In this document: one piece after another, positions 5,900 through 32,493 of the stretch
How positions within the stretch are numbered: position 1 is the first letter of the stretch
Layout: each line of letters opens with the position of its first letter
Origin: Kiritimatiellales bacterium
Lineage (GTDB): Bacteria > Verrucomicrobiota > Kiritimatiellia > Kiritimatiellales > Pontiellaceae
Reading direction: 5' to 3'
NCBI GenBank assembly: GCA_021734345.1
Contig: JAIPJC010000023.1
Coordinates: 1-32,493, forward strand
Length of the DNA: 32,493 nt
The notes under the pieces: model-generated
What the model was told of the DNA's origin: nothing
The model's database searches: none
Seen by the model: the letters and a program-made list of their open reading frames with translations, nothing else
Translations under genes and position numbers: made by a program

Positions 5900-7474
5900 A
5901 TGAAAAATGACACTTGGTATCTGAATGCGGTGTTCTACCAGATTTATCCGCAGACGTTTTGTGACAGCGACGGCGACGGAATCGGCGACCTGAAAGGCAT
6001 CGAGAGCAAGCTCGATTACCTGAAGGATCTCGGCGTGGACGCCATTTGGATCAACCCGATTTTCGAGTCACCAATGCTCGACGCGGGATATGACGTGACC
6101 GATTACCGCAAGATCCACCCGCGCTACGGTTCGATGGCGGACTTCAAGCGGCTGCTGCGCGAGTCGCACAAGCGCGGCATCCGCGTGCTCCTTGATCTGG
6201 CGCTCAACCACACCTCCATCTTCCACCCGTGGTTCCAGGAGTCGCGCAAGTTCAAGAAAAACAAATATTCCAACTGGTATGTCTGGAATGAAAACGAATG
6301 GTTTCCGAAGCTTCCCGGCAAATGGCTGACCAACCACCACGGACGGCACGAGTCGGCGTTTTCCACTTTCCATCAGGAGCAGGTTGATCTGAACTTCGGC
6401 CTCGCCGCGCTGGCCGACGATTGCGGCAACACGCCGAAGGATCCCGGCGTGAAGGCGCTCTGGGAGGAAATGCGGAATGTGGTTCGCTTCTGGCTCGATC
6501 TCGGCGTCGACGGCTTCCGCTGCGACGTGCCGGATGCGGTCGGCGTCAAAGCGTTCGCCAATGAACCGGAGCTGTCCGGCGCGTTCTGGAGCTACATCCG
6601 CAAGGCAGTCGATCAATATGGCGACCGCATGATGGTGGCGGAGCATTGGGACGATGATTCGCACGCGATCAACGACCTGAATTTCCATTTACAGTTCACC
6701 AAAAACTTCTGCCTGCTTTCGACGCATAAAGACACGCTCTTCAGCGAGAACCGGCAGTATATCCGCGCCGGCCGCGCCCTCGATCCGACCGGCTTCGACG
6801 AACACATCAACCTTCAGGTTTCCAATGTCCGGAAAAAAAACGCGGCCATCGCCATGCAGACAAGCAACCACGATCTGCCGCGTCCAAGCACCGGAAGCGA
6901 AGGTGACGATGATCTCACCATTCTGGCGCTGGCGATCAACCTCACGCATAACACGGTGCCGTTCATCTACTACGGCGACGAGCTGGGCATGATTGTTAAT
7001 CCGAACGCGCCGTCGGTGGAAGGCGCCGCGTTCAAAGCGCAGTACCGCACGCCAATGCAGTGGGCGTCCGGCAAGAACGCGGGGTTCAGCGGTGCACCGG
7101 AAAAGAAACTCTACCTTCCGCTTTCCAAGGATTGGAAAAGCCGCAATGTCGAAAAGCAGCTCAAGGATCCCGGCTCGGTGCTGAACGAAACGAAGCGGCT
7201 GATCGCGCTGCGCAAGAGCCATCCGGCGTTTGCGATAAGCGCCGAAAAGATCACGGTTCTGGCGGAAACGGGTAATCCGGTCTACATCTACAAACGCAAG
7301 GCGAAAAACCAAGCGGTGCTGGTGGCGGTGAATGCTTCGGCTTCGAAGCGCACGGTTGAACTGGACGTTGGCGAGGCTGGCCTGCTGCTCGCCCGGCATG
7401 GAACGCAGCCAACATGGGCCGATGGGCAATTGATCCTGCCGCCGCGCAGTTTTGCAATCTTCGAGGTGCGCTGA
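5900..7474 (+). CDS. GH13 alpha-glucosidase-type enzyme
   Basis: A 524-residue alpha-amylase-family enzyme with the conserved regions intact: DLALNH (region I), GFRCD with the nucleophile D209, the acid/base E248 in VAEHW, and D325 in SNHD. It begins WYLNAVFYQIYPQTFCDSDGDGIGDL, the usual opening of oligo-1,6-glucosidase, alpha-glucosidase and trehalose-synthase-like members. The region V sequence reads QVDLN rather than QPDLN, so exact linkage preference is open. It has no signal peptide and is expected to cleave alpha-glucosides in the cytoplasm. I chose ATG 5900 over the GTG at 5894 because AAGGAG lies 8 bases upstream of the ATG. Its stop overlaps the start of the symporter gene. Confidence 0.9.
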   Translation: MKNDTWYLNAVFYQIYPQTFCDSDGDGIGDLKGIESKLDYLKDLGVDAIWINPIFESPMLDAGYDVTDYRKIHPRYGSMADFKRLLRESHKRGIRVLLDLALNHTSIFHPWFQESRKFKKNKYSNWYVWNENEWFPKLPGKWLTNHHGRHESAFSTFHQEQVDLNFGLAALADDCGNTPKDPGVKALWEEMRNVVRFWLDLGVDGFRCDVPDAVGVKAFANEPELSGAFWSYIRKAVDQYGDRMMVAEHWDDDSHAINDLNFHLQFTKNFCLLSTHKDTLFSENRQYIRAGRALDPTGFDEHINLQVSNVRKKNAAIAMQTSNHDLPRPSTGSEGDDDLTILALAINLTHNTVPFIYYGDELGMIVNPNAPSVEGAAFKAQYRTPMQWASGKNAGFSGAPEKKLYLPLSKDWKSRNVEKQLKDPGSVLNETKRLIALRKSHPAFAISAEKITVLAETGNPVYIYKRKAKNQAVLVAVNASASKRTVELDVGEAGLLLARHGTQPTWADGQLILPPRSFAIFEVR

Positions 7475-8961
7475 TGCAGAAGCTGGCACCGGGGAAAGAG
7501 AGCTATCGCGGGAAGGTTCCGTTCTGGCGGAAGATCGCCTACGGCTTCGGCGCGCTGAGCGGCAACTTCATGCTCAATGTGCCGTGGGCGTTCATCGGCC
7601 CGATCTACAACGTGGCGCTCAAGCTCGACCCGGTTTTGATCGGCATCGCCACGGCCATTCCCCGCATCTTCGATGCCATCAGCGATCCGTGGGTAGGGAA
7701 CCTTTCCGACAATACGCGCAGCCGCTTCGGGCGGCGGATTCCCTATATGTTTTCCGGTGCGCTGCTTTCGGCAGCGGTTCTGCCGCTGATGTGGATGCCG
7801 CCGTCGCAGTCGACGTGGATGTTGTTTTCGTTTCTGGCTGTGACGGCTTCCATGTTCGCGGTGAGCTACACGCTCTATATCATTCCCTATTCCGCGCTCG
7901 GGTTCGAGCTGACGAGCGACTACAACGAGCGCACCCGCCTGCTGGCGTGGCCCAACTACATCGGCCTGCTCGGATCGTTCGTGATCATGTGGGTGCCGAA
8001 CATGCTCTACCGCTGGACGGCGGATCCGGATCTGCCGGGGAAAGTTCATGTCCTTTTCCCCAGCGAGCTGGTCGCGGCCCGCTGGATCAGCGTCGGGGTG
8101 GGCATCCTGATCATCGTCTTCGGATGGATTCCGGTCTTTTTCCTCAAGGAGCCGCAGGCGGCGCAGAAGCAGAGCCCTATTAAAATCCTGGATGCGTTGA
8201 AATACACGCTGCAAAACCGCGCCTACCTGATGCTGCTCATCACCAGCCTGATCGTGCAGGGCGGCCTTTCGACCGTCGGTGTTTTTGGTTTTTATGTGAA
8301 CACCTATCTTGTTTTCGGTGGCGACAAGAACATGGGCACGGAAATCGGAGCGGTTGGCGGGAACCTCTACACGATCAGCGCCTATCTCGGCGTGTTCCTG
8401 TTGACCAAGGTCGCCACGTCGATCGGCAAAAAGGTGGCCATGCATTGCGGGTTGTTGATCGCCGCCATCGGATCGGCCTCCTATTGGTGGACGCTGTCGA
8501 GCGAGCGGTTTTCCTTCTGGGGCTTGCCGGAATACACCTACCTGCCGTTGATCGCGCCGTTCATCATCGGCCTCGGCCTGCAAGGGTGCTGGATGCTCTT
8601 TGTTTCCATGACCGGAGATGTCTGCGACGAGGATGAGTTGAAAACCGGTCTGCGGCGCGAGGGGATGTACAGCGCCATCACCAGCTTTTCACAGAAAATC
8701 TCGCTGGCCTTTGCCGGTCTGTTTGGTGGATTGATTTTGAAATACAGCGGGTTCGACGCCACCGTGGCGGAGTCCACCGGGGTTGCGCCGGAGATTCTCG
8801 GCCACATGAAAAACTTTTTTGTATTCGGCCAGACCGGTGTTTTTATATTAGCTTTCATCATGATCGGATTTTTCCCGATCACGAAGAAGCGGGCGCTGGC
8901 TACCCGGCGCATTCTAGACGAGCGCAGGGCGGCGGGAGAGGTTACTAGAGGGATTGAATGA
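7474..8961 (+). CDS. GPH-family sugar:cation symporter 1 (MelB-like MFS)
   Basis: A 495-residue membrane protein of the glycoside-pentoside-hexuronide:cation family with about 12 hydrophobic segments. MelB-type signatures are clear: DAISDPWVGNLSDNTRSRFGRR after the second helix, YSALGFELTSDYNERTRLL in the central part, and DEDELKTGLRREG near the C-terminus. It should import an oligosaccharide or glycoside with Na+ or H+ through the inner membrane. The start codon shares one base with the GH13 stop (TGATG), which implies translational coupling. It is clearly more divergent than symporters 2 and 3 of this locus, so it may take a different substrate. The substrate cannot be read from sequence. 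Confidence 0.92.
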   Translation: MQKLAPGKESYRGKVPFWRKIAYGFGALSGNFMLNVPWAFIGPIYNVALKLDPVLIGIATAIPRIFDAISDPWVGNLSDNTRSRFGRRIPYMFSGALLSAAVLPLMWMPPSQSTWMLFSFLAVTASMFAVSYTLYIIPYSALGFELTSDYNERTRLLAWPNYIGLLGSFVIMWVPNMLYRWTADPDLPGKVHVLFPSELVAARWISVGVGILIIVFGWIPVFFLKEPQAAQKQSPIKILDALKYTLQNRAYLMLLITSLIVQGGLSTVGVFGFYVNTYLVFGGDKNMGTEIGAVGGNLYTISAYLGVFLLTKVATSIGKKVAMHCGLLIAAIGSASYWWTLSSERFSFWGLPEYTYLPLIAPFIIGLGLQGCWMLFVSMTGDVCDEDELKTGLRREGMYSAITSFSQKISLAFAGLFGGLILKYSGFDATVAESTGVAPEILGHMKNFFVFGQTGVFILAFIMIGFFPITKKRALATRRILDERRAAGEVTRGIE

Positions 8962-11697: not shown

Positions 11698-11789
11698 AGG
11701 CGAATACTAAAGGTTAATTATCTTTACTTTCCAATCTCCCTTCAGCCACTCTGTCCAACCACAATGAACGGAATTTGAGGGGTATGGAT

Positions 11790-13211
11790 ATGAAGCAAGA
11801 CATAGGTGAGACGGAGCAAGCGGAGTATACACCGCAACACATTCCCCTGCTGAATAAAATCGGCTACGCCTTCGGCGCCATGACGGATAATCTGATCATG
11901 AACGCCTTCGGGTCGCTGGTGATGCCGGTCTACAACCTTGCGCTGTTCATCGATCCGGCCTTGCTGGGATGGGCGGTGGCGATTCCGCGCATTTTCGACG
12001 CCATCACCGACCCGATCATGGGGAATATTTCCGACAACACCCGTACCCGCTGGGGACGCCGCCGCCCCTATATTTTCGGGGGGGCGACCCTCTGCGCCCT
12101 GATTCTCCCCTTTATCTGGATGGCTCCGGTTCTCACCGACTGGGGTGTGTTCTGGTGGGTTGCCGTGCTCGGCTCGCTCTACTTCACCGCCTACACCATT
12201 TTCATTATTCCCTACCAGGCGCTGGGTTTTGAAATGACGACCGACTACGACGAACGAACCCGCCTGCTGGCGTGGCCCAACTATGTAGGCCTCACCATGT
12301 CGTTCCTGCTGCCTTGGCTTCCACGCATGATCGAGTTCAAGGTTTTTGGCGGAGCGGCGCACGGGGCGGTTTGGGTCAGTATTGGTGCCGGGATCATCAT
12401 CATGGTGAGCGGCATCATGCCTGCGATTTTCGGGCGCGAAATCGCGCAGGCCGAGAAGCAGGACCGTATTCCGTTCCTTGCCGCTATCAAGGAATCGGCG
12501 AGCAATCGCTCGTTCCTCATCGTGGCCTTGTCCAACGTCATCGTCCTGACAGGCTTGGCGACGTTTGTCGGGATTGGCCTGTACGGGAACATCTTCATGA
12601 TCTTCGGCGGCGACCGCGCCGCCGGTTTGGCGCTGGCCGGACTGGGCGGAACCGTCTACGCCATTGTGTCCTACTTCAGCGTGATGATTGCCGTCTGGTT
12701 GGGAACCCGCTTTGGGAAGAAGATCACCACGCAGATCCTGCTGGGGATCACGATGATCGGTTCGGCCAGCCTATGGTTCACGCTGCGTCCGGATCTTCCA
12801 TATCTGCAGCTGCTTTCCACGGTCATTGTCGGGATCGGCCTGCAGGGAACCTGGATGACCTTCTTCACGATGGTCGGCGATGTCTGCGAAGAGGACGAAC
12901 TGAAAACCGGTTTGCGGCGGGAAGGCATGTTTAGTTCCATTGGCGGCTTTTCCCGTAAAATGGCCGTGGCCGTAGCCGCGATCATGGCGGGGAATCTCCT
13001 CAAATGGATCGGCTTCGATGCGGCGTCCGCCGCTGAATCGGGTGTGCCAGACGCGGTGTTGTCCCACCTCAAGGTGGCCTATGTACTCGGGCAGGTTGCG
13101 GTTCTCGGACTGGGCTTGCTATTGATCAGCTTCTACCCCATCACGCGCCAGCGCGCCATGGAAACCCAACGGCTGCTCCGGGAACGCCGCGGGGAATTGA
13201 CCGAAGTATAA
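11790..13211 (+). CDS. GPH-family sugar:cation symporter 2
   Basis: A 473-residue MelB-like symporter with about 12 membrane segments. It has the family signatures DAITDPIMGNISDNTRTRWGRRRP, YQALGFEMTTDYDERTRLLAWPNY and EEDELKTGLRREG. Over most of its length it is strikingly similar to symporter 3 (25274-26686), much more so than to symporter 1. The ATG at 11790 is chosen because GAGGGG lies 7 bases upstream; upstream in-frame TTG 11775 and ATG 11784 sit inside or too near that site. The preceding 92-base gap probably holds a promoter, but no boxes are clear. Sulfatase 1 starts 20 bases after its stop, so the two are co-transcribed. Confidence 0.92.
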   Translation: MKQDIGETEQAEYTPQHIPLLNKIGYAFGAMTDNLIMNAFGSLVMPVYNLALFIDPALLGWAVAIPRIFDAITDPIMGNISDNTRTRWGRRRPYIFGGATLCALILPFIWMAPVLTDWGVFWWVAVLGSLYFTAYTIFIIPYQALGFEMTTDYDERTRLLAWPNYVGLTMSFLLPWLPRMIEFKVFGGAAHGAVWVSIGAGIIIMVSGIMPAIFGREIAQAEKQDRIPFLAAIKESASNRSFLIVALSNVIVLTGLATFVGIGLYGNIFMIFGGDRAAGLALAGLGGTVYAIVSYFSVMIAVWLGTRFGKKITTQILLGITMIGSASLWFTLRPDLPYLQLLSTVIVGIGLQGTWMTFFTMVGDVCEEDELKTGLRREGMFSSIGGFSRKMAVAVAAIMAGNLLKWIGFDAASAAESGVPDAVLSHLKVAYVLGQVAVLGLGLLLISFYPITRQRAMETQRLLRERRGELTEV

Positions 13212-19212: not shown

Positions 19213-20028
19213 CTATCCCTGCCGCGGCGGCCGTATGGCCGGGACGGGATCGAGGATCGTTCTTTGCGCCGGAGTCAACCGCTCAAGAAGCTTCTTTGAA
19301 TATTCGAAGCCATACCGGGTTCTGGTATATGCAGGACCGTAGCGGTAGATGATGATCCGCCGTTCGCCGTCGTTGGTCCGGCTGCTTCCACCATGCAGGA
19401 TGCCATCGACGAAGAGCAAGGCATCGCCCGCCTTCAGGTGCACGGGAATGGCACCTTCGAGCGTATTCATCCGGTCGCCCGCATCGTAGTCTCCGGCGTT
19501 GGGGTGGGGGAAGTTCGACTTGTGGCTTCCGGGAACCACCATCGTCGGGCCGTCGCCCGGGCCGATGTCGGTGAGGGCGAGGATAATGTTGCATTGGCCG
19601 CAGCGGAAAACCTCGTGCATGTACTGGTAGAGGCATCGGAGCGATACACGGTAGCCGCCGGAATGGACGGGATGGTGTCCGCCGGATCGCCGGATCGAGG
19701 CAATGCATTCGTCGATAAACAAGCCTTCGAAATAACTGTCCTTATCCCCGCAGTAGCGCCGGACATACTCGATCCAGGAAGGGTGGTCGATAAGGCACTC
19801 GAATGGTTTGCCTATTTCAACGACGTTGTGCAGCTCAAACCCGGTGTCCTTGGTATAGTCGCGCCGCTGGGCGTTGCCCCACCATTCGTTGGTTTCCAGC
19901 GGCGGAAAATTATCAAACTGCTGGTTCAGTTCTTTCAGGTGCTCCGGATCGACGGCATTTTCAAGAATAAGGTAGCCGCGGAGATCGAAAAGAAAGTCAT
20001 CGAGTGGGCTGGGTGTTTGGTTTCCCAT
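19213..20028 (-). CDS. PhyH-like Fe(II)/2-oxoglutarate dioxygenase family protein
   Basis: A 271-residue protein of the phytanoyl-CoA dioxygenase superfamily, recognised by ALTDIGPGDGPTMVVPGSHKSNF (151-173) and LFVDGILHGGSSRTNDGERR (205-224), which supplies the distal iron-binding His (H212) and likely a 2-oxoglutarate-binding Arg. The proximal site, normally HxD, appears as H122-S-G in HHPVHSGGYR, so the usual Asp is not obvious. Such enzymes hydroxylate or oxidatively demethylate small molecules. AGGAG precedes the ATG. It lies 27 bases downstream of UroD-like 2 on the same strand, so the two form an operon read away from the XylR regulator. The substrate is unknown. Confidence 0.75.
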   Translation of the reverse strand: MGNQTPSPLDDFLFDLRGYLILENAVDPEHLKELNQQFDNFPPLETNEWWGNAQRRDYTKDTGFELHNVVEIGKPFECLIDHPSWIEYVRRYCGDKDSYFEGLFIDECIASIRRSGGHHPVHSGGYRVSLRCLYQYMHEVFRCGQCNIILALTDIGPGDGPTMVVPGSHKSNFPHPNAGDYDAGDRMNTLEGAIPVHLKAGDALLFVDGILHGGSSRTNDGERRIIIYRYGPAYTRTRYGFEYSKKLLERLTPAQRTILDPVPAIRPPRQG

Positions 20029-20055: not shown

Positions 20056-21198
20056 TTAGAACAGTTTGGAAAGGCTGATTTTTCCCTCGTCCGCCGCGCC
20101 TTGAATGGCGCGGATGTCGTCGCCGATATCCTCTTTTTCGGTGAGCGATCCCGCCGTGCGATACAGCGTTAAAATGTTTTCCAGCGGGGAGCCGACCTGG
20201 ATGGCATGGGTCGGACCGATGAAAAGCCCGCCGTCTTTGAACAGCTCAAGGCGGCGTTTGACTTCGCGTTCGATGTCGGCGGGCGTACCGAAGGCGATGG
20301 TGGATTGAACGCAGACGGTTCCACAGAAGATCAACTTGCTTCCGTATTTTTCGTGGAGCACGGCGATATCCATCGCCGGGGTGGTGGGTTGCACGACATC
20401 GTAGACATCCAGTCCCAGCTCGATCAGGCGCGGCAGGAAGGCGTTCACGCAACCGCACATGTGCATCTTGCTGCGGGCTCCGTACGAGTGAACCATGTAG
20501 AAATACTTTTTATATTTGGCGGCGAAGTGGCGCTCGAAAAGTTCCGGGCTGATCATCGGGCCGGTCTGGTTTCCAAGATCGTCGCCGACGTGCGCGAAGT
20601 CCATCAATCCGCCGGCGGCTTCGAGCATGCGGCGGTGCTGTTCGTAGAAAAATTCAAAGCGTGCTTCCATGATGGCCAGATAGACTTCGTTGTCCTCGAT
20701 CAGGTCGATCAAAACCTGCTCGGTCCCGCGGCAGCGGGCGATGCTGTTGATGAAGTCCATGTCGCCGGCGGTGCCGCAGCAGATGGCCACGCCTTGTTCC
20801 GCCAGTTTCTCGCACTGCGGGCGGATAGCGGAATAGTCGAACCAGTTGGCGGAAGGAAAGTGCGAGCGGTCCAGCGCGTCGAGCGTTTCGATACCGGCAT
20901 AGGGCAGATAGCTGGCTTCCAGATATTTGCCGCCTTCGAATTCGGCGTATTTGTAGCGTTCGCCAAAATAGCCCTCGATGCTGCCATCGGGGAACGTTTG
21001 TAGTTTCGGCCCGATATAGACGGGTTCGACGTAGCGGAAGTCGCTGCCCAGCACGCACAACAGCTGTTCGTGGTTTGCCAGTCCGAAATAATCCATCAGC
21101 ATGTGGTCGATTTCGGGAGTGCCTTCGTGCTTCACCGGAATGCGGTCGTACCCTGTCCGGTTGACTGCGCCCATTACGCGTTCGCGGGATGTCATCAT
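20056..21198 (-). CDS. Uroporphyrinogen decarboxylase-like protein 2 (methyltransferase-type)
   Basis: A 380-residue URO-D-fold protein starting MMTSRERVMGAVNRTGYDRIPV, the same opening pattern as UroD-like protein 1. A potential zinc motif H246-M-C248 lies in SKMHMCGCVNAF, as in MtaA/CmuA-type methyltransferases, but the distal position reads FIGPTHAIQ, with no Cys. The frame is open to ATG 21210; I chose 21198 because GGAG lies 6 bases upstream of it and nothing suitable precedes 21210. Its sequence is quite different from UroD-like 1, so the two are not a recent duplication. It is first in a minus-strand operon with the PhyH-like gene, divergent from the XylR regulator. Substrate unknown; methyl transfer is possible but no corrinoid protein is nearby. 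Confidence 0.82.
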   Translation of the reverse strand: MMTSRERVMGAVNRTGYDRIPVKHEGTPEIDHMLMDYFGLANHEQLLCVLGSDFRYVEPVYIGPKLQTFPDGSIEGYFGERYKYAEFEGGKYLEASYLPYAGIETLDALDRSHFPSANWFDYSAIRPQCEKLAEQGVAICCGTAGDMDFINSIARCRGTEQVLIDLIEDNEVYLAIMEARFEFFYEQHRRMLEAAGGLMDFAHVGDDLGNQTGPMISPELFERHFAAKYKKYFYMVHSYGARSKMHMCGCVNAFLPRLIELGLDVYDVVQPTTPAMDIAVLHEKYGSKLIFCGTVCVQSTIAFGTPADIEREVKRRLELFKDGGLFIGPTHAIQVGSPLENILTLYRTAGSLTEKEDIGDDIRAIQGAADEGKISLSKLF

Positions 21199-21269
21199 AG
21201 CCTTCTCCATTTTGTGGGATCGATCCTCGTGGATCCAGTGGCCAGATTAGGACGGTGCAGGATTGCAGA

Positions 21270-21281
21270 CAACGCCACTTC
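21270..21281 (-). promoter_or_regulatory. Candidate XylR operator, copy 1
   Basis: On the minus strand this reads GAAGTGGCGTTG. It lies in the divergent gap between UroD-like 2 and the XylR-type gene, 71 bases before the UroD-like start and in the same orientation as that gene. An identical 12-mer lies at 22528-22539. Both copies have GGTT[A/T]AA a short way upstream (9 and 5 bases), which could be a second half-site. Confidence 0.45.
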
Positions 21282-21326
21282 GCGTTAGCGTTTAACCAAT
21301 TTGCGAACATGAGGATGGTTCGGGTT

Positions 21327-22487
21327 ATGAAGAGTGCGATTCCCCGCATTATGATTTTGATGGATCCGGCACGCGGCTACGACCGGGCGTTGATGCGTGG
21401 AATGGCCCACTATGTCCACACCACCGGACCGGTCCAGTTTTTCCAGCCGCCACCGTTCTGGGAACGATGGGACCACTATTCCCTGATTGGATTCATCCAG
21501 GAAAGCAAGGTCGACGGAATGATCATGATTGAGCGCGAAGACATGGATGCGCTTTTTGAACTGAACATTCCGATGGTCGTCAGCCCGTACAACCGCCTGG
21601 AGATAAACAATGCGGTCAACCTCGTGACGGACCATCACGCCATCGGGCGGTTTGCCGCCGAGCATTTGATCACCTGCGGCTTCCGGCAGTTTGCCTTTTG
21701 CGGATACAACGACATGTTCTGGTCTGGAGAACGGTTGGCCGGATTCACGGAACGGTTGGGGGAAGACGGCTTTGTTCCGGATGTCTATGCAGGGAATGCA
21801 CATTCGCCCAGCGATGAAAAAGTCCGGTTGCTGATCTGGCTGAACGGCCTTGCGCATCCAACGGGAATCATGGCGTGCGCCGATGAACGCGGACGCGAGC
21901 TGGTGGAACTGTGTGTTTCCAGCGGTATCCGCGTGCCGGACGAGATCGGTGTTATCGGCGTGGATGACGACGAGCTGCTGTGCGACCTTTCCCCGGTTCC
22001 GCTTTCCAGCGTCGCCAATACCGCCGAGCAGTGCGGCCACGAAGCCGTGGCGCGCATTGTCGAGTTGGTTGGAAATAAAAAAAAGTGCTCACTTAAGCCG
22101 GACATCGTCGTCGAACCGAACTGTTGCGTTGGTCGGCTGTCAACCGACTTTATCAACACGGAAGATCCAGCCTTGGCCAAAGCCATCAGGTTTATCCGCG
22201 ACCATGCGCGGCAAGCCGTCGGGGTAGAGGGAGTAGCGCAGGCCTGCGGACTTTCCCGCCGGGTATTGGAAAAGCGGTTTCGCAAAAACCTGGGCATATC
22301 CGTTTATGCCGAAATCCGCCGCGTCAGGGTCGATCTTTTCGCTCGGCTGCTGTTGGAAAGCAACCGGACGATTGCCGAGATTGCCGAGCAACTGGGGTTT
22401 GAAGGCATCGAACATGTCTCCCGCTACTTCAAGGCCCAAACCGGCACAACGCCACGCGAATACCGCCTCCGCTACGGACGCGGCTGA
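21327..22487 (+). CDS. XylR-type transcriptional regulator (sugar-binding domain plus AraC HTH)
   Basis: A 386-residue regulator with a LacI/periplasmic-binding-like sensing domain (about 5-270, beginning IPRIMILMDPARGYDRALMRGMAHY and including DEIGVIGVDDDELLCDLSPVPLSSV) and a C-terminal AraC double helix-turn-helix (about 285-385, VEGVAQACGLSRRVLEKRF and TIAEIAEQLGFEGIEHVSRYFKAQTG). This is the XylR architecture, which typically activates sugar catabolic genes on binding a free sugar. The start is ambiguous: ATG codons at 21309, 21315 and 21327 are in frame and none has an ideal Shine-Dalgarno; 21327 fits the family's usual N-terminus. It is flanked by UroD-like 2 (divergent) and the GH65 gene (downstream), both carrying the same candidate operator. 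Confidence 0.9.
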   Translation: MKSAIPRIMILMDPARGYDRALMRGMAHYVHTTGPVQFFQPPPFWERWDHYSLIGFIQESKVDGMIMIEREDMDALFELNIPMVVSPYNRLEINNAVNLVTDHHAIGRFAAEHLITCGFRQFAFCGYNDMFWSGERLAGFTERLGEDGFVPDVYAGNAHSPSDEKVRLLIWLNGLAHPTGIMACADERGRELVELCVSSGIRVPDEIGVIGVDDDELLCDLSPVPLSSVANTAEQCGHEAVARIVELVGNKKKCSLKPDIVVEPNCCVGRLSTDFINTEDPALAKAIRFIRDHARQAVGVEGVAQACGLSRRVLEKRFRKNLGISVYAEIRRVRVDLFARLLLESNRTIAEIAEQLGFEGIEHVSRYFKAQTGTTPREYRLRYGRG

Positions 22488-22605: not shown

Positions 22606-25290
22606 ATGAACAGACATCATATACGGGCGGTTTTATTTGATTTCAACGGGGTGGTGACGGCTGGCGGAGAGGTTTTCCCAGACGTTGTACCGTTACTGCA
22701 TAAACTGAAAGCTGAAGGCTCCCGGCTGGCGGTCTATTCGGAGGACAACACGGCCGAGGCGACGCTTAATGCGTTAAAGCTCGCCGCCTATTTTGATGCG
22801 ATTATTGCGGGGAGCGACAAGCTCGACTCCGAACTTTTCACCAATGGAGCAGAGGCCGTCGGCGTCCATCCGTTCCACTGCCTTGTCTTTGCCGCGACCT
22901 CCATCGGTGTTGAGGCTGCGCGGTTGGCGGGCATGAAATGCGTTGGGCTCGGCGATGCCGCAACGTTGTCGGAGGCACCGTCGGTCATCGTCGAGTACAG
23001 CGAGATCGATGTGGAAGCACTGCTGGATTCCGCCCGTCCATTCCGACCGGAGCCGCACGGCTGGAATTTGGTGGAAAGCGAATTCCGCTCGAGTCGCTCG
23101 CTCTACTGGGAATCCATGCTGGCCGTCACCAACGGCGTGCTCGGCGTGCGCGGAAATCTTGAGGAAGAGAACGAGGGCGTCGAGTCGTATCCGGCAACGC
23201 TGATGAACGGCGTGATCGGCTTCTTTCCCTATTTCTACATGTGGAAGTTTTCCGGCTTCCCGGAGCGCGGCCACTGCGTACTCAACGCCTGCGAATGGAC
23301 AAAGGTTCAGCTGGAGGTGGACGGCGAGCGGTTTCACATCAGCCATCCCGGCCTGAAAAAACACCGCCGCTGGCTCGATATGAAGACGGGCGTGATGCAC
23401 CGCGAGTTTGTATGGGAAACATCCAGCGGAGTAGAGGTAACAGTTCGCTCCCGCCGCATGGCGAGCATGGTGCGGCGCCATCTGGCCGCGCTGGAATATT
23501 CCGTCGAAGTTTCCAAACCTTGCAACGTCCGCCTGCAAACCGCGACGGACTGTTCCCCGAAGAGCCGCCATTTTGGCAAGGAAGGTTTTTCTTTCGGCGG
23601 ATGGCAGACGCGCAACGGAGTTCTTTGTGCGCGGCAGACCGCCGTCTCCGGCGGGCAGCAGGTCGCCTCCGGCTTCCGCGTTCTCTTTTCGGAAGGCAAC
23701 AGCGAGCCGCAACGGGACGGAGCCGTCAGCGTTTCTTCGATCAATGTTGCGGCGGTGCCGGGCAAGCCGGTCACGCTCGAAAAGACCGCCGTCTTCTACA
23801 GCGATCTGGAGACCGACGCCGGCACCCTGGACGCGGCGGTTGACCGCGAGCTGGCCGAGGCTCCCGCGCCCGGCGGTCTCGTTGAAGAGCAATCCAAATT
23901 CTGGAAAGACTATTGGAACATCGCCGACGTGCAAATCGACGGCGATGCGATGGATCAGCTGGGTGTCCGGCTGAGCCTGTTTCACAACCGGCAGAGCAAT
24001 CCGGAAGACGGGTTCCGCAGTATCAGCGCCAACGGCCTGACCGGCGACAACTATGCCGGCCACGTTTTTTGGGATACGGAAATGTATATCGCCATGCCGT
24101 TCCTCTATTCGGAACCGGCAACTGCGCGCGGCCTGCTGGAATATCGCTACCGCATTCTGGACAAAGCGCGGGAACGCGCCCGTCAGCTCGGACGCAAAGG
24201 GGCGGAATATTCGTGGAACTCCGTCAATGGAGAAGAGTGCGGGCACGTCTTTGAAGCGGCCACCGGACAGCACCATTTGCAGAGCGACATCGCCTGGGCG
24301 GTGGATCGCTATGTCGATGCCAGCGGCGACCGGGAGTTTTTGTACACGATGGGTGCCGAGATCGTTTTTGAAACCGCGCGATTCCTGCGCGACCGCGGCG
24401 CGTTCAGCGACTACAAGGGCGGCTTCGTGCTCAACGCCGTCTGCGGGCCGAACGAATACGGCTGCGGCGTCGACAACAACGCCTACACCAATTACATGAT
24501 GCAGTGGCATTTTGAAACCGCCGCCCGCTTCTTTGAGGAAATGAAAAAGGAAGCGCCGGGAATCCTCTCCGCTCTCTGCGAACGCATCGGCCTGACGGAA
24601 GAAGAAGCGGCGGATTGGAAAAAAACTGCGGCGTGCGTCTATCTGCCGTGGGATGAAAAACTTGGCATTGTTCCGCAGGACGACGCTTTTCTCGGACACG
24701 ATCCGGTAGACATGTCGAAAATCCCGTTGCACACCGATATTCGCACGTTGGTCCATCCGCTCGATCTCTGGCGCATGCAGCTCATTAAACAGGCCGACAC
24801 GGTGCTGCTGATGTATCTGCACCGCGACAAGTTCGACGACGAAACCGTGCGCCGCTGCTATGAATATTACGAGCCAAAGACCAACCACGGTTCGTCGCTC
24901 TCCGCCTGTATGCACGCCATTGTCGCGGCGGACATCGGACTGCTGGACGATGCCTACCACTTCTTCCGCGAAAGTTCGCAGATGGATATCAACGACCTCA
25001 AGAGCAACACCGGCGGCGGCGTTCATTCCGCCTGCCTCGGCGGAACCTGGATGGCGGTGGTCAACGGATTCGGCGGCATGCGCGACGAAAAACACACGCT
25101 CAAATTCCGCCCGCAACTTCCGGAGAAATGGACACGCCTTTCATTCCAGCTGGTCTGGCACGGCACGCGCATCGGTGTGGAAATGAAACAAGATGCCGTG
25201 ACCTATCGCCATCTCGGCGGCCCGGTGGTAACCTTCGGACATTGTGGCCAGACCGTTCAATTGGATGAGGGTGATGAAAAGCAAATTTGA
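22606..25290 (+). CDS. GH65 glycoside phosphorylase with N-terminal degenerate HAD (beta-PGM-like) domain
   Basis: An 894-residue fusion. Residues 1-145 form a short HAD domain without the cap. D12 is present in FDFNGVV, S45 in VYSEDN and K72 in KLDSELF, but the second motif I Asp is N14 and the motif IV acids are replaced (FAAT, 95-98, where the intact enzyme at 18555 has FEDA). Residues about 150-890 are a complete GH65 inverting phosphorylase, with the general acid E617 in VCGPNEYGCGVDNNAYTNYM, KQADTVLLMYLH, and the phosphate-site region TNHGSSLSACMHAIVA. GH65 enzymes cleave alpha-glucosides with phosphate to beta-glucose 1-phosphate. With rhamnosidases nearby, an alpha-glucosyl-rhamnose substrate is plausible. 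No signal peptide, so cytoplasmic. The symporter gene overlaps its end. Confidence 0.88.
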   Translation: MNRHHIRAVLFDFNGVVTAGGEVFPDVVPLLHKLKAEGSRLAVYSEDNTAEATLNALKLAAYFDAIIAGSDKLDSELFTNGAEAVGVHPFHCLVFAATSIGVEAARLAGMKCVGLGDAATLSEAPSVIVEYSEIDVEALLDSARPFRPEPHGWNLVESEFRSSRSLYWESMLAVTNGVLGVRGNLEEENEGVESYPATLMNGVIGFFPYFYMWKFSGFPERGHCVLNACEWTKVQLEVDGERFHISHPGLKKHRRWLDMKTGVMHREFVWETSSGVEVTVRSRRMASMVRRHLAALEYSVEVSKPCNVRLQTATDCSPKSRHFGKEGFSFGGWQTRNGVLCARQTAVSGGQQVASGFRVLFSEGNSEPQRDGAVSVSSINVAAVPGKPVTLEKTAVFYSDLETDAGTLDAAVDRELAEAPAPGGLVEEQSKFWKDYWNIADVQIDGDAMDQLGVRLSLFHNRQSNPEDGFRSISANGLTGDNYAGHVFWDTEMYIAMPFLYSEPATARGLLEYRYRILDKARERARQLGRKGAEYSWNSVNGEECGHVFEAATGQHHLQSDIAWAVDRYVDASGDREFLYTMGAEIVFETARFLRDRGAFSDYKGGFVLNAVCGPNEYGCGVDNNAYTNYMMQWHFETAARFFEEMKKEAPGILSALCERIGLTEEEAADWKKTAACVYLPWDEKLGIVPQDDAFLGHDPVDMSKIPLHTDIRTLVHPLDLWRMQLIKQADTVLLMYLHRDKFDDETVRRCYEYYEPKTNHGSSLSACMHAIVAADIGLLDDAYHFFRESSQMDINDLKSNTGGGVHSACLGGTWMAVVNGFGGMRDEKHTLKFRPQLPEKWTRLSFQLVWHGTRIGVEMKQDAVTYRHLGGPVVTFGHCGQTVQLDEGDEKQI

Positions 25291-26686
25291 CGCACAGCAT
25301 ATCCCGCTGCTGAACAAACTCGGGTACGGCTGCGGCGCCATGGCGGACAACCTGATCATGTGCGCTTTTGCCTCAATGGTTTTGCCGGTCTACAACATTG
25401 TGCTCCACATCGATCCGGTCATCCTCGGATGGGCGATGGCGATCCCCCGCATCTTCGATGCCATCACCGATCCGATCATGGGAAACATTTCCGACAACAC
25501 CCGCACCCGCTGGGGCCGGCGCCGTCCGTACATTCTCGCCGGAGCGGTGGCTTGCGCAATCATCCTTCCTTTTCTGTGGCTGTCGCCATTCAAGAGCGAC
25601 TGGGGCGTATTCGGCTGGCTGGCTGTTCTCGGCACGCTCTATTTCACTGCCTACACCGTTTTTATCATTCCCTATCAGGCGCTTGGTTTTGAAATGACCA
25701 CCGATTACGACGAACGCACCCGTCTGCTGGCGTGGCCGAACTATGTCGGCATGACGACATCCTTTCTGCTGCCGTGGCTGCCACGGATGATTGAGTACAA
25801 GGGATTCGACGGGCCGGTCAACGGTGCGTTTTGGGTCAGCATCGGGGTCGGGCTCATCGTGCTCTTTGGCGGTTCGATGCCGGCGATCTTCGGCCGCGAA
25901 ATTGCGCGGGCGGAAGAGCAGGTCAAAACCCATTTTCTGGATGCGATCAAGCAGGCGGTTCAGAACCGGGCGTTCTTGATCGTGGCGGCATCTAATGTGA
26001 TCGTGCTGACCGGGTTGGCCGCGTTTGTCAACCTGAGCTTGTACGTGAACATTTACATCATCTACGGCGGACTGGCGCCGGATGCGGCGCGCGCGGCGGG
26101 GCTGGCGATGGTTGGCATCGGCGGCACGCTCTATGCCTTGATTTCGTATGTCAGCGTCATGATCGCCGTCTGGCTGAGCACCCGGATTGGTAAAAAAGCG
26201 ACCGCGCAGATTCTGCTCGGCGTAACCGCGATCGGCGTCGGTAGCCTATGGTTCACCCTGCGTCCGGAGCTTCCGTATCTGCAACTCGTCTCCACGTTCA
26301 TCATCGGCCTTGGCTTGCAGGGAACCTGGATGACGTTCTTTACGATGATCGGCGATGTCTGCGAAGAGGATGAGTTGAAAACCGGGCTGCGGCGCGAAGG
26401 AATTTTCAGCTCCATCGGCGGCTTTTCCCGCAAAATGTCGGTGGCGGTGGCCGCCGTGCTGGGCGGTGTTACGCTCAAATGGGTCGGCTTTGATGCCGCC
26501 GTCGCGGAGACAGCGGGCCTGACCGATGCGGTTAGCCTGAATCTGAAGATCGCTTATGTTGCGGGGCAGGCCGCGGTGGTTGTCGGCGGGCTGGTTTTAA
26601 TCTGGTTTTATCCCATCACGCGCAAACGTGCCATGGAAACCCAGCGGTTGCTCAAGGAGCGTCGCGGCGTACTTTTAAATGACTAA
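25274..26686 (+). CDS. GPH-family sugar:cation symporter 3
   Basis: A 470-residue MelB-like symporter, a close paralogue of symporter 2: long stretches such as DAITDPIMGNISDNTRTRWGRRRP, IIPYQALGFEMTTDYDERTRLL and EEDELKTGLRREG are the same in both. It differs most in the outer loops and near 265-285 of its own sequence, where IIYGGLAPDAARAAG is a short insertion compared with symporter 2. The ATG at 25274 is chosen because GAGGGTGATG forms a near-ideal ribosome-binding site; ATG 25265 is also in frame. It overlaps the GH65 stop by 17 bases, so phosphorylase and importer are translationally linked. Confidence 0.92.
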   Translation: MKSKFDAQHIPLLNKLGYGCGAMADNLIMCAFASMVLPVYNIVLHIDPVILGWAMAIPRIFDAITDPIMGNISDNTRTRWGRRRPYILAGAVACAIILPFLWLSPFKSDWGVFGWLAVLGTLYFTAYTVFIIPYQALGFEMTTDYDERTRLLAWPNYVGMTTSFLLPWLPRMIEYKGFDGPVNGAFWVSIGVGLIVLFGGSMPAIFGREIARAEEQVKTHFLDAIKQAVQNRAFLIVAASNVIVLTGLAAFVNLSLYVNIYIIYGGLAPDAARAAGLAMVGIGGTLYALISYVSVMIAVWLSTRIGKKATAQILLGVTAIGVGSLWFTLRPELPYLQLVSTFIIGLGLQGTWMTFFTMIGDVCEEDELKTGLRREGIFSSIGGFSRKMSVAVAAVLGGVTLKWVGFDAAVAETAGLTDAVSLNLKIAYVAGQAAVVVGGLVLIWFYPITRKRAMETQRLLKERRGVLLND

Positions 26687-26700
26687 GGAGAGACAGGAAC

Positions 26701-29037
26701 ATGCCCGCAGTTAATCAACTTGCAGTGATGGTTATGAGTCTGGCGGCATTGGACCAGCCGGACTCCCATCTGCTTCTACACGGAACGTTCGACCTGCCGG
26801 CGGATGCCGAAATTCGGTGCGATCTATACAGCACCGCCTGGTTCAATGCGTTCATGGATGGCAAATGGTGGATGGATGGCCCGGCGCGTTTTTCGCCGTC
26901 GCAAAAGGAATATATTCAGGCCGGTAAAAAACTGTCCGCCGGGAAACATACGCTGGCACTCCAGTTGAAAACCAACGGAGTGGATACACGGATTGCAAAA
27001 CATCAACCGCCACGTTTTTTTGCACAGCTCTTTTCCGGCGAACAGGAGATTCCGGTCGATTGGAAAGTCTGCCGTTCCGATGCGTATGAATCACAGAAGG
27101 CGCGTTTGACCGGAGTCCTTGGATGGATCGAATGGTGCGACACCCGCAAGCTGCCGACCGCCTGGCCGTTGGAAGCCGGAACGAATCAGCAATGGAGTAC
27201 GCCCATCTTCCAGCAGGAAGACAAAAGTACCTTTACCCTGATTGATGTTCCGCCGGTGGCGCGTGTCCGGCATGGACTGGAGCCGATGGAGCAGGGCCGG
27301 TTGATCATGGCGCGCGGCGAGGCCTTCACCAAAGAGGCGGGCTGGAACTTTTTCATGCGCAACCTTTCCCCGGTTCGCCAGCATGATCAGGGCGTCTGGC
27401 GACGCTATGATCTCGGCCGTGTACGGCTGGCCTATCCGCGCTTCACGCTGGATGTTCCCGCCGGAACGGTCGTCGAGTTTGGCTACAGTGAATATCTGGA
27501 TCACGGACGGGTTTGTCCGGTCGTTTCGCAGTCCGGCTGTCCGACCTGTTTTCTGGATCATTATGTGGCGCGCGGCGGCATGCAAACCTTCCAACCTTCG
27601 GAACCGCGCGGCATGCGCTTCCTAGAGGTGCATGTGATCGGCGATCCAGAGAGGATTCGGTTTGTGGATGAGGCGGTTGATGAGCGGACGTACTACACGG
27701 AAAAACCGCAGGGAAGTTTTGCATGTGACGACAAACTGCTCAACCGGATCTGGTCGGTCGGCGTCGAGACCATGCGCTGCTGCTACGAGGATTCCCCGAC
27801 CGACACGCCCGGCCGTGAGCGCGGGCAGTGGCTGGGCGATGTCACTGCGGCGGGAATCGATGTGACGGCGGTCTCCTACAGCGACCTCGCGCCGATCCGG
27901 CGGATGCTCGTCCAGGCCGCGCAATGCCCGGAGCCCGACGGCACGATTTTCGGCATGGTGCCCGGCATGGGCATGATGATTCCGGCGTTTGCGTTGCAGT
28001 GGGTTAGCACGACCGCGCACTACTACGAACTGACCGGCGACCGTGCGCTGCTGGAAGAGTTGTTCGAGGCCGCGCTCACCAACATGGCGGCCATGAAGTC
28101 CTACAGCGAAGACGGCCTGCTTAAAAAGGTTCGCGATGTCTGGAACTTTATCGACTGGGGCTATCAGACGCCCAGCAGTCCGTTCCCGGGGATTGACCCC
28201 GCCTTCCGGGCAACGTTGAAAGAAGATTTGGCTTTGAGCCTCAATTGGTACCGCGCCCTGCAGGATTTGCTGCGCTGGGCGGATTGGATCGGGGCAGGCG
28301 ACCGGGTTGACCCATTCCGCGCGGCCTTTGCGGAGAGCGATGCGGCCCTCCGTCGGTCGTTGCCGACGCAGAACCTCGACAAACCGGAAACGTGGTATGC
28401 CTACGGGTTCCACGCGACGGTGTTGAGCCTGCTTTACGGTTTGATGGATGACAGCCAGACCGCGTCCGCCGTCACCTTCATTGAAAATCATATTGAATCC
28501 TGTTTCCCGAACGATCTGAACGCGCCGATCCTGTATTGCGAAAACATCATGGAGCGGCAGGTCTTCACGCCGTACTTTGCGCACTACATCTTCGATGCGC
28601 TGATCCAGCACGGCGAAATGGACTTTGTGCAGCGGCAGTACCGCTCCTGCTGGGGGTGGTGCCTCGAACAAGGACTGACCACGTGGCCGGAGGTTTTCGA
28701 TCTGCGCTGGAGCCACTCGCACCAGTATTCCGCCTGTCCGACCTGGCAGCTTTCCCGCTACGCTCTCGGCCTGCATCCATGTTTCGACAAGGGAAAGGAC
28801 CACTACCGTTTCGATCTGCGCCCCGGATCGTTGCACCAGGCCCGTGGCACGCTGCCGGTTTGCGGCAGCAACGAATTGCCGATCGAGGTGGAGTGGAAGC
28901 GGAGTGGTGATTGCATGCGTGTAAAAATCACGACGACCCATCCGATTTATCTGCATCGCGAAGGGATGGATGTTCTGTTGATAGAAGGAAGAACCGAATT
29001 CGACGTGCCCGCAGAACCCATGACGAAAGCATTGTAG
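26701..29037 (+). CDS. Second GH78-like alpha-L-rhamnosidase
   Basis: A 778-residue protein of the rhamnosidase six-hairpin type, without a signal peptide. An N-terminal beta domain (about 20-150) is followed by a linking beta domain and an (alpha/alpha)6 barrel (about 330-690). The barrel holds D364-S-P-T-D368-T-P-G-R-E-R-G-Q-W-L-G-D380, the family's acidic signature in a form close to canonical GH78 (DxPxRxxxxWLGD). It differs from the first GH78 at 3205 in sequence and domain layout, so the two probably split substrates by linkage or neighbour sugar. It follows symporter 3 by 14 bases with AAGGAG upstream and so is part of the GH65 operon. Identity as rhamnosidase is likely but not proven by sequence. 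Confidence 0.78.
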   Translation: MPAVNQLAVMVMSLAALDQPDSHLLLHGTFDLPADAEIRCDLYSTAWFNAFMDGKWWMDGPARFSPSQKEYIQAGKKLSAGKHTLALQLKTNGVDTRIAKHQPPRFFAQLFSGEQEIPVDWKVCRSDAYESQKARLTGVLGWIEWCDTRKLPTAWPLEAGTNQQWSTPIFQQEDKSTFTLIDVPPVARVRHGLEPMEQGRLIMARGEAFTKEAGWNFFMRNLSPVRQHDQGVWRRYDLGRVRLAYPRFTLDVPAGTVVEFGYSEYLDHGRVCPVVSQSGCPTCFLDHYVARGGMQTFQPSEPRGMRFLEVHVIGDPERIRFVDEAVDERTYYTEKPQGSFACDDKLLNRIWSVGVETMRCCYEDSPTDTPGRERGQWLGDVTAAGIDVTAVSYSDLAPIRRMLVQAAQCPEPDGTIFGMVPGMGMMIPAFALQWVSTTAHYYELTGDRALLEELFEAALTNMAAMKSYSEDGLLKKVRDVWNFIDWGYQTPSSPFPGIDPAFRATLKEDLALSLNWYRALQDLLRWADWIGAGDRVDPFRAAFAESDAALRRSLPTQNLDKPETWYAYGFHATVLSLLYGLMDDSQTASAVTFIENHIESCFPNDLNAPILYCENIMERQVFTPYFAHYIFDALIQHGEMDFVQRQYRSCWGWCLEQGLTTWPEVFDLRWSHSHQYSACPTWQLSRYALGLHPCFDKGKDHYRFDLRPGSLHQARGTLPVCGSNELPIEVEWKRSGDCMRVKITTTHPIYLHREGMDVLLIEGRTEFDVPAEPMTKAL

Positions 29038-30055: not shown

Positions 30056-31060
30056 ATGAGTATGGAAACAACGGCAGCCTGTCGGATCGAATGGTACCGG
30101 ACGCCGATCGAAAAGGAGCAGTTCAAGGCGCTGACGCAGCGGTCGGATGCAAAGGCCTTTTTGCAGGCCGGCTCATACCTGTTGGTGATTGTACTGACGG
30201 GTGCGTTGACGTTTTGGGTTAAGCGGAACTTGGGTTGGCCATGGCTGGTTCCAGCCTTGTTCATCCACGGAACCGTTTATGCCTTCCTGATCAATGCGGT
30301 GCATGAGCTATCGCATGGAACGGTGTTCCGCACCAAATGGCTCAACAGCCTCTTCCTGCATATCTTCGCTTTTCTGGGCCTGAACAACCACGTCTTCTTC
30401 CGGGCCAGCCACATGCAGCATCACCAGCATACGCTGTACTTTCCGCAGGACTCGGAAGTGGTGCTACCCATCAAGCTGACCCTTAAAGGTTTTTTTCAAA
30501 CTGCGCTTGTGAACTGGCCGCGGATGAAGTGGCAGATGGGCCAGTTGCTACGGTTCGCCTTTTCGCGTTTCAAGGGGGATTGGGAATGCGTGTTGATGCA
30601 GGATGACAAGGTGCGCATTGCGGTCGTTCGGTGGGCGCGCGCAATGTTGGTCGGCCATGTGGTGATCGCGGTGTTCTCCTTGGCGTATGGTGTGTGGCTC
30701 GTTCCTGTCCTGGTTACACTCGCACCATTCTATGGCGAAGGATTGAACTACCTGCTCAACAACACCCAGCATGTCGGACTTTGCGGCGACGTCGCCGACT
30801 TCCGCCTTTGCTGTCGGACGATTCAAGTGAATCCGCTATTCCGGTTTCTGTATTGGAACATGAACTGGCACACGGAACACCACATGTATGCGGCGGTTCC
30901 CTGCTATAATCTCGGCAAGCTGCACCGAGCCATCGGGCACGACCTGCCGCCTGCGCCGAAAGGGCTGGTTGAAACCTGGCGCCAGATATCCAGCATACTC
31001 CATTCCCAGAAAGCCGATCCTTCATACCAGTTTGTTTCCACTCTTCCCGAACCCGGTTAA
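30056..31060 (+). CDS. Membrane fatty-acid desaturase-like di-iron enzyme
   Basis: A 334-residue integral membrane protein with the three histidine boxes of the membrane desaturase/hydroxylase superfamily: H83ELSH87, H119MQHH123 (with H125), and H272TEHH276, plus H239 in NNTQHVG. Hydrophobic segments lie at about 36-56, 63-83, 97-115 and 197-225. Members use a di-iron centre and O2 to desaturate or hydroxylate lipids, carotenoids or other small molecules. It is only 14 bases upstream of a sulfatase, so the two are co-transcribed. The substrate is unclear: a lipid role is standard, but the location beside sulfatases in a sugar locus leaves other oxygenations open. Confidence 0.83.
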   Translation: MSMETTAACRIEWYRTPIEKEQFKALTQRSDAKAFLQAGSYLLVIVLTGALTFWVKRNLGWPWLVPALFIHGTVYAFLINAVHELSHGTVFRTKWLNSLFLHIFAFLGLNNHVFFRASHMQHHQHTLYFPQDSEVVLPIKLTLKGFFQTALVNWPRMKWQMGQLLRFAFSRFKGDWECVLMQDDKVRIAVVRWARAMLVGHVVIAVFSLAYGVWLVPVLVTLAPFYGEGLNYLLNNTQHVGLCGDVADFRLCCRTIQVNPLFRFLYWNMNWHTEHHMYAAVPCYNLGKLHRAIGHDLPPAPKGLVETWRQISSILHSQKADPSYQFVSTLPEPG

Positions 31061-31074
31061 CAAAGGAGTTGATC

Positions 31075-32493
31075 ATGCATTATCGCAAAAAGATAACCAT
31101 GGCGGTCGTGATGGCTGCCGGAATGTTGCTCCCGTTGGCTGGCTATTCCTCCAACGAGCCGCGCCCGATGAATGTGCTGTTCGTCATGGTGGATGACCTG
31201 AAGCCGCTGATGGGCTGCTACGGCGACCCGATTGCAAAGACACCGAACATGGACAGGTTGGCGGCGCGCGGCGTGCTCTTCGAACGGGCAACCTGCCAAA
31301 TTTCCCTGTGCGCTCCCAGCCGGGCATCCATCTTCACCGGTCTGCGGCCCGATACGTTGAAATGCTACACCAATGTAGACAAGTTCCGCAAGAACCTCCC
31401 CGGTATCGTGACCATGCCGCAGGCCTTCCAGCGTTCGGGCTACCACACGGTCAGCATCGGCAAGGTGTACGATGCGCGCAACTGCGATCCCGGTGCGTGG
31501 GACGAGGAGATGCTGCCCAGCTCGGAGACGGAGAAGAAAATATACGCGCTGGAGGAAAACGAGCGGCTCTACCATGAGAACGATGCGCGCTTCAAGGCGG
31601 CGACCACCCAGGAAAAGTTCCGCCTCTGGCGCGTCGGCCCCGCCTACGAGAACGCGCCGCTCGACGAGTCGCACTATTGGGACGACCAAGTTGCCGAACA
31701 GGCCATCGCGACACTGCGCCGCATCAAGGACAAGCCGTTTTTCCTCGGCGTGGGTTTCATCAAGCCGCACCTGCCGTTTGCCTGCCCGAAGAAATACTGG
31801 GATCTCTATGACCACGACAGCATGCCGCTGGCGTCCAACCCCGAACCGCCGGACAACGGCGTGCCGATGGCGCTGCACGACGGTTTCGAGCTGCGGCAGT
31901 ACCAAGGCATCCCCCGCAAGGGACGGCTCGACGACGACCTGGCCCGCACGCTCATCCAGGGCTACTACGCCTGCGCCTCGTTCGTCGACGCCATGATCGG
32001 CCGGGTGCTCGACGAGCTGGATGCGCTTGGCCTTAAGGACAACACGATCATTGTGCTGATGGGCGACCACGGCTGGCATCTGGGCGACAAGGGCATATGG
32101 GGCAAATTGACGGCATACCAGGAAGCAACCATCGCGCCGATGATTGTGGTTGATCCGCGGCGCAACGGCGGCAGTCGCGTCAATGGACTGGTCGAGTTCG
32201 TCGATATCTGCCCGACGCTCTGCGAGCTGGCCGGTGTCGCGGCGCCAGACGGGTTCGAGGGAACCAGTTTTGCGCCGTTGCTCGCCGACCCTTCCAAGAA
32301 CTGGAAAAGGGCCACCTTTTCGGAAGTAGGTCGCGGCGCGGCGTGGAAGGAATTCATCGGCACCTCCATGCGCACGGAGCGCTACAACTATGTCGAGTGG
32401 CGTCACCGCACGAAAGGCACGTTGCAAGCCCGCGAACTCTACGATCTCGAAACCGATCCGCGCGAAATGAACAATCTCGCGTTGACTCCCGAG
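31075..32493 (+). CDS. Sulfatase 3 (iduronate-2-sulfatase-like), exported, partial at the 3' end
   Basis: The frame runs open from ATG 31075 to the end of the window (473 codons, no stop), so the C-terminus is missing. It has a Sec signal (about 1-26), FVMVDDLKPLMGCYGD with metal-binding D40-D41, and the formylglycine motif C79-A-P-S-R83 followed by ASIFTGLRPDTL. IGKVYD, FIKPHLPFACPKKYWDLYD and GDHGWHLGDKGIWGK are typical of iduronate-2-sulfatase-like members (S1_7 type). It would remove sulfate from a glycan after export. The ribosome-binding site AAAGGAG lies in the gap after the desaturase stop. By analogy with the family, only a short tail should be missing. Confidence 0.93.
   Translation, partial: MHYRKKITMAVVMAAGMLLPLAGYSSNEPRPMNVLFVMVDDLKPLMGCYGDPIAKTPNMDRLAARGVLFERATCQISLCAPSRASIFTGLRPDTLKCYTNVDKFRKNLPGIVTMPQAFQRSGYHTVSIGKVYDARNCDPGAWDEEMLPSSETEKKIYALEENERLYHENDARFKAATTQEKFRLWRVGPAYENAPLDESHYWDDQVAEQAIATLRRIKDKPFFLGVGFIKPHLPFACPKKYWDLYDHDSMPLASNPEPPDNGVPMALHDGFELRQYQGIPRKGRLDDDLARTLIQGYYACASFVDAMIGRVLDELDALGLKDNTIIVLMGDHGWHLGDKGIWGKLTAYQEATIAPMIVVDPRRNGGSRVNGLVEFVDICPTLCELAGVAAPDGFEGTSFAPLLADPSKNWKRATFSEVGRGAAWKEFIGTSMRTERYNYVEWRHRTKGTLQARELYDLETDPREMNNLALTPE

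Follow-up and report, generated by a model that had tools for sequence, protein, structure and literature searches.

A GH65 phosphorylase fused to a capless, probably inactive beta-phosphoglucomutase core

The beta-phosphoglucomutase (bPGM) of L. lactis (PgmB, PDB 1lvh/5o6r; family TIGR01990) is a HAD-fold enzyme whose cap, according to PMC11283535, extends from T16 to V87. GH65 phosphorylases of known structure, namely kojibiose phosphorylase (3wiq/3wir), glucosylglycerol phosphorylase (4ktr) and maltose phosphorylase (1h54), have chains that begin at the GH65 module, with no HAD domain before it. Both activities can also be found in one chain, with the bPGM at the C-terminus (Paenibacillus, locus L071, and others) or at the N-terminus. 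Here we describe a protein of the second kind, with the HAD at the opposite end from that in the Paenibacillus type, encoded in a 32,493-nucleotide stretch of a Kiritimatiellales bacterium genome (contig JAIPJC010000023.1, positions 1 to 32,493; this whole stretch is called the window). The open reading frame lies at 22606-25290 on the plus strand, starts with ATG and encodes 894 amino acids; it shares domain order, linker and GH65 type with the other N-terminal fusions, but whereas their HAD is capped and complete in its motifs, that of the window protein is neither. What is left of the mutase, its core, is thus joined to the enzyme producing the mutase substrate. Among the open-access papers listed, none describes a pseudo-bPGM fused to GH65 in its title or the start of its abstract; pseudoenzyme domains as such are already known.

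The fused HAD domain compared with bPGM

A first-pass annotation made from the sequence had proposed the fusion of GH65 and HAD domains in a single frame, and both the frame itself and its Pfam domains bear this out. The HAD core comprises residues 1-145 (22606..23040) and the GH65 module residues 151-886 (23056..25263), on the plus strand like all features below unless stated. The three GH65 families match above their cut-offs (Glyco_hydro_65N over residues 157-399, 65m over 455-816 and 65C over 825-886), and the N-terminal part is matched by Hydrolase over residues 11-109 and HAD_2 over 22-114. The Rossmann-like core of the window protein superposes on bPGM, which places it in the HAD fold, and the AlphaFold2 (AF2) model is confidently folded.

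The absence of the cap is evident in two comparisons. TIGR01990 matches only over model positions 89-187, starting at residue 22, so that the cap portion of the model is unmatched; the HAD domain alone scores 55.2 bits, below the cut-off of 189.4. Residue equivalences were taken from the phmmer alignment to L. lactis bPGM, and functional elements from PMC11283535. Residues 7-22 align with residues 3-18 of the bPGM chain in a weak piece (5.3 bits), with D12 opposite D8 and N14 opposite N10; after a gap, residue 21 is aligned with residue 90. Since the alignment resumes at residue 90 and the published cap ends at V87, the skipped part is essentially the cap and nothing else. The point at which it is missing corresponds to residues 18-20 (22657..22665); in the aligned relatives the cap is about 72-77 residues long.

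Changes in the remaining active site are extensive, and D12, N14, S45, K72 and F95-A-A-T98 were all found at the positions that the first-pass annotation had named. The nucleophile, D8 of bPGM, is retained as D12. N14 (22645..22647) replaces the general acid-base aspartate, D10, which all 9 capped N-terminal fusions retain. Of the phosphate-bridging loop (A113-N118), a remnant S45-E-D-N-T49 is left (22738..22752) where capped relatives have S-[SA]-S-[KR]-N; S45 corresponds to S114 and is the sole residue kept, and N48 takes the place of K117. In the control loop (E140-I150; remnant at 22816..22830), K72 is retained as the equivalent of K145, but four residues are deleted ahead of it and prolines are replaced (P73L, which is L for P146 of bPGM, and P75S). 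F95-A-A-T98 (22888..22899) stands where capped relatives have FED[AS]: the Mg site has lost its two acids, A96 and A97 occupying the positions of E169 and D170. The domain therefore has DFN in place of the DxD of motif I, no helical cap, no Mg site and a score below the TIGR01990 cut-off, and retains the serine of motif II and the lysine of motif III. D10N and D170N variants of bPGM are present among the solved structures; the window protein is a natural counterpart of these hand-made variants, taken further by removal of the cap.

These changes are concentrated in the HAD part. At sites identical in nine capped N-terminal fusions, the window protein differs at 12 of 39 in the HAD domain and at 3 of 125 in the GH65 module, so the HAD changes go beyond chance. 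Within the HAD, 8 of 17 sites in the active-site loops and 4 of 22 elsewhere were altered (p 0.08). With the cap, the acid-base residue and the Mg ligands gone, a working mutase site is not credible and the domain is very likely a dead mutase, as the first-pass annotation had suspected. Survival of the nucleophile and the fold might suggest instead that the domain works as a HAD phosphatase of the capless (C0) type on some other substrate; however, the second motif I aspartate and both motif IV acids are gone and no Mg site is visible, and we regard such altered catalysis as very improbable.

Capped relatives, a second capless protein and a mosaic core

In all, eleven N-terminal HAD::GH65 proteins were found, two of them capless. 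The nearest relatives found for the window protein are G717b (62% identical) and G275 (59%), both capped, and the same genome encodes a paralogue (G000:C76), 51% identical from residue 22 on, with a complete capped HAD that scores 214 bits on TIGR01990, above the cut-off; over the aligned length the closest four fusions are 48-61% identical to the window protein. G032a, G032b, G472, L036, L039 and L037 bring the capped fusions to nine. As judged by these comparisons, the window HAD is derived from an intact capped HAD, because all nine, the paralogue included, are capped with intact motifs. Homologues with intact HAD and cap had been put forward by the first-pass annotation as grounds against a dead domain; they do exist (9 of the 11 N-terminal fusions), but they indicate decay of the window domain rather than activity.

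Capless relatives sharing N14 and FAAT, which the same annotation had proposed to look for, were not found with the window protein as query (E <= 1e-150) in overlapping sets covering its order (43 genomes), a phylum sample (387), its class (288), the class (286) and order (177) of G275, the family of G717 (26) and the class of G715 (298); in the phylum, class, G275 class and order, and G715 class sets scoring was limited to 2 to 5 candidates in each genome, and extra copies could be missed there. The second capless protein, from genome G908, does not have this combination; it was itself used as query at 1e-120 in its order (38 genomes). Neighbourhood loci (genome_contigs) were the best 80 of 111 relatives.

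Several other candidates were set aside. The C-terminal fusions do not appear to be a source of capless forms, motif I being DxDGV in 12 of 12 checked and the spacing that of capped proteins in 11 of 12; in the remaining one, L046, the K motif was missed by the spacing pattern and the alignment displays the protein as capped. L141, L142, L143 and L144 each have one frame with a complete capped HAD, and L014, in which a motif I match lies 70 residues upstream of a second match, looks capped. These candidates had come from hits starting before residue 15 (L014) or from long frames (G007, G033, G030), and L144 also has a 70-amino-acid frame. A HAD-core profile gave no match at E <= 1 to the other GH65 frames that carry a long stretch ahead of the module (L101, L095, L096, L106). 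In L101 (5212 on) and L106 (587 on), about 250 and 350 residues precede the GH65 match without a HAD match; these stretches may be open-frame read-through or another N-terminal domain.

The G908 protein (contig C51; locus L137, 5413-8199) comes from the same class as the genome with the Phycisphaerae locus L036. It has the same architecture as the window protein, a capless core with the GH65 module kept, and aligns from residue 5 without the cap, but shows 37-39% identity and belongs elsewhere in the GH65 tree. Motif I is FGLRA, the Ser of motif II is His, the Lys of motif III is Glu, and Thr and Arg replace the motif IV acids; not one of these six catalytic positions, the nucleophile included, is intact. 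Its partner in the GH65 tree is the capped G032b (100% support), and the window protein is placed far away, so the two losses appear to be independent. By these comparisons the cap and the predicted catalysis have been lost at least twice, and the core was retained each time. Relative to the sites identical in the capped fusions, the G908 protein is changed at 23 of 39 in the HAD (14 of 17 in active-site loops and 9 of 22 elsewhere, p 0.02) and at 9 of 125 in GH65. This pattern fits loss of catalysis with the frame partly kept; it also agrees with slow decay, because the HAD sites outside the loops are relaxed too. In the G908 neighbourhood compared, the fusion itself is the only gene in common with the window.

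The G908 protein also bears on the proposal, made in the first-pass annotation, that the domain serves the phosphorylase by sensing or holding a sugar phosphate. In the window protein D12, S45 and K72 are retained, and the D10N variant of L. lactis bPGM is described in PMC11283535 as forming a complex with beta-glucose 1,6-bisphosphate. In that variant, however, the cap (including R49), K117 and the Mg site are still present; the window protein has none of them, and G908 has lost even D12, S45 and K72. The elements that hold the substrate (the cap with its specificity loop, the phosphate-bridging loop, the control loop and the Mg site) are altered or absent, so that no ligand site can be recognised as retained, and a regulatory or ligand-binding role is improbable.

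A further feature of the window HAD is that its parts appear to have different histories. In the GH65 tree the window protein is joined first by G717b (99%) and next by G275 (100%), whereas the HAD tree places it with C76 and G032a (97%). When the domain was split for topology tests, residues 24-90 (22675..22875) were of the type of the own paralogue C76, grouping with G275/G717b being rejected by the approximately unbiased (AU) test (p = 0.0013), while residues 98-150 were of the G275/G717b type, grouping with C76/G032a being rejected (AU p 0.013). This suggests that the core is a mosaic formed by recombination inside the domain. A single recombination with a C76-like paralogue, its left junction skipping the cap, could account for both cap loss and mosaic; the right junction lies near motif IV, which is altered. 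With a draft assembly of 176 contigs, the likeness of residues 24-90 to C76 could raise the suspicion that the cap loss or a chimeric HAD came from misassembly with the paralogue. Residues 24-90 are, however, only 54% identical to C76, a divergence far too great for the two genes to have been joined by the assembler; moreover, the frame is open throughout, N14, A96 and A97 lie outside the gap, and G908 is capless in another genome. An artefact is therefore the most improbable of the explanations considered.

Persistence of the core

On balance we favour the view that the window protein is a GH65 alpha-glucoside phosphorylase whose N-terminal bPGM partner has been reduced to its alpha/beta core and is kept for structural reasons; we hold this with somewhat better than even confidence. 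The GH65 module keeps the general acid, the phosphate serine pair and the histidine and would still make beta-glucose 1-phosphate. The attached HAD would be unable to convert this to glucose 6-phosphate, and the product would for that reason be released to another mutase. The core may persist because GH65 folds, dimerises or stays soluble with the core packed against it, a step of which we are less sure. Given the two independent cases, structural retention of the core is, in our judgement, more probable than not. Of the roles that the first-pass annotation had offered for a dead or altered domain, the dead state is thus upheld and sensing is disfavoured; shaping of the phosphorylase is the one we prefer.

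Several observations weigh against this. The structural role is argued from persistence in two proteins and a confident AF2 model. The window protein still has D12, S45 and K72, and when it is taken by itself the excess of changes in its active-site loops falls short of significance. HAD sites outside the loops are less conserved than GH65 (4 of 22 against 3 of 125 changed). Codon bias is 0.061 in the HAD stretch but 0.193-0.291 in every 150-codon GH65 segment taken, as plain decay would give; however, of 579 segments of 150 codons from 17 other window genes, 5.4% have values as low, and in two of these genes the opening 150 codons score lower still (-0.014 and 0.055). Finally, the genome is a draft of 84.8% completeness, from which a further mutase could be missing.

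The HAD core could accordingly be a roleless vestige on its way to complete loss, held in place solely by the need to leave the GH65 module behind it undisturbed. Besides the codon bias and the changes outside the loops, this is favoured by the sites invariant in seven outgroup fusions, of which the window protein has changed 12 of 34 in the HAD against 17 of 149 in GH65 (p 0.0015); at the same sites G275 has changed 3 of 34 and 12 of 149, and G717b 2 of 34 and 22 of 149. Against such decay, two independent cases dropped the cap and kept the whole core, though GH65 frames without a HAD in the same frame are common. Over residues 98-150 the window protein still agrees with G275 and with G717b at 72%, and it is confidently folded in its predicted structure. 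Differences from C76 over residues 24-90 at the three codon positions (0.33/0.19/0.54) are those of purifying selection, which is not dated to the time after the loss; with third-position differences of 0.45-0.68 in all pairs listed, saturation is too strong for the ratio of non-synonymous to synonymous substitution (dN/dS) to date the loss. Plain decay is the main alternative to structural retention, and the less likely of the two. The intact paralogue and the second independent capless case together make a general question testable, namely whether the fusion serves channelling or is a scaffold outliving its chemistry.

Phosphate site, mutase supply and neighbouring genes

The GH65 module agrees with the solved kojibiose, glucosylglycerol and maltose phosphorylases in fold, general acid, serine pair and histidine. 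The general acid E617 (in GPNEY; 24454..24456) is Glu in 36 of 36 aligned proteins, S763-S764 (24892..24897) is S-S in 36 of 36, and H807, taken as the phosphate histidine by spacing, is present in 35 of 36. According to PMC8626586, GH65 phosphorylases hold phosphate by a lysine, a histidine and two serines, the last being the role assigned here to S763-S764; in the hydrolase FjGH65A described there, Met330 replaces the phosphate lysine and the catalytic base Glu616 lies nine residues ahead of the residue replacing the phosphate histidine. Column 476 is 141 residues ahead of the general acid and Met330 is 142 ahead, so column 476 is the probable position of the phosphate lysine. It is Asn in the window protein (N476, 24031..24033) and Asn, Thr or Cys in all ten N-terminal fusions of the 36-protein alignment, with Thr in G908; in the 26 other GH65 proteins picked for that alignment it is always Lys, as it is in 77 of the 78 other GH65 frames longer than 600 amino acids in the genome_contigs loci, the last having Asn. 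Kojibiose and maltose phosphorylase also have Lys there, and 4ktr Arg.

A lysine is found elsewhere in the fusions. K799 (25000..25002), eight residues ahead of H807, is Lys in 10 of 10 fusions and in G908 but in none of the 78 other frames, and among the alignments listed 3wiq, 1h54 and 6w0p have no Lys in this column. The exchange at columns 476 and 799 is common to all eleven fusions found (the window protein, L121, L122, L123, L124, L125, L128, L036, L037, L039 and L137). The phosphate lysine thus seems to have moved from 476 to 799 in the N-terminal-fusion clade, K799 being a possible stand-in for the usual residue. That this shift goes together with a required mutase core, from which cap and catalysis could be stripped but the core could not, is a joint reading that we put forward tentatively, at less than even confidence.

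The first-pass annotation had pointed to a full mutase in the same locus, the separate HAD protein P0002 (18555..19208). This is not supported: P0002 has intact HAD motifs but scores 100.8 bits on TIGR01990 (100.5 in a second search), under the cut-off of 189.4, and among solved structures it matches a phosphorylated-carbohydrate phosphatase (3kbb, 87.0 bits) and CbbY (82.8) best, with bPGM behind them (64.0). It also has Glu and Tyr at the columns of the cap Arg and Ser of the fusions, which we take to be R49 and S52 of L. lactis bPGM. P0002 is therefore phosphatase-like, not a convincing bPGM, and is not supported as the partner mutase. The only domain above the bPGM cut-off in the 84.8% complete draft of this genome is the HAD fused in C76; if the window phosphorylase needs a mutase, this domain is the strongest candidate found and would have to act in trans. 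Annotation pipelines could credit the window protein with mutase activity, or mistake P0002 for the missing mutase.

The fusion lies in a single-strand series of four genes. Upstream is a regulator with a Peripla_BP_3 sensor and an AraC-type helix-turn-helix by Pfam (21255..22487); downstream are an MFS_2 sugar:cation symporter (25244..26686), whose relatives close to the fusion of L128 and L121 are 74% and 65% identical to it, and an alpha-L-rhamnosidase-like glycosidase (Bac_rhamnosid6H by Pfam; 26701..29037). Relatives of the latter were found near the fusion in five of the eight neighbourhoods compared (one about 4.7 kb off) and relatives of the transporter in two of eight. From the rhamnosidase-like neighbour one might guess at a glucosyl-rhamnose-type GH65 substrate.

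Elsewhere in the window, two frames, 1204-3198 (664 amino acids) and 31057-32493 (478 amino acids, running off the window), have no Pfam match at E <= 0.001. The symporter is one of three MFS_2 proteins in the window (7414-8961, 11775-13211 and 25244-26686), around which lie an alpha-amylase-like enzyme, a fucosidase, two sulfatases and two rhamnosidase-family proteins. On the minus strand, a URO-D-family (methyltransferase-like) protein (20056-21210) and a phytanoyl-CoA dioxygenase-like protein (19213-20028) adjoin, and this pair sits between the sulfatase/HAD pair and the regulator.
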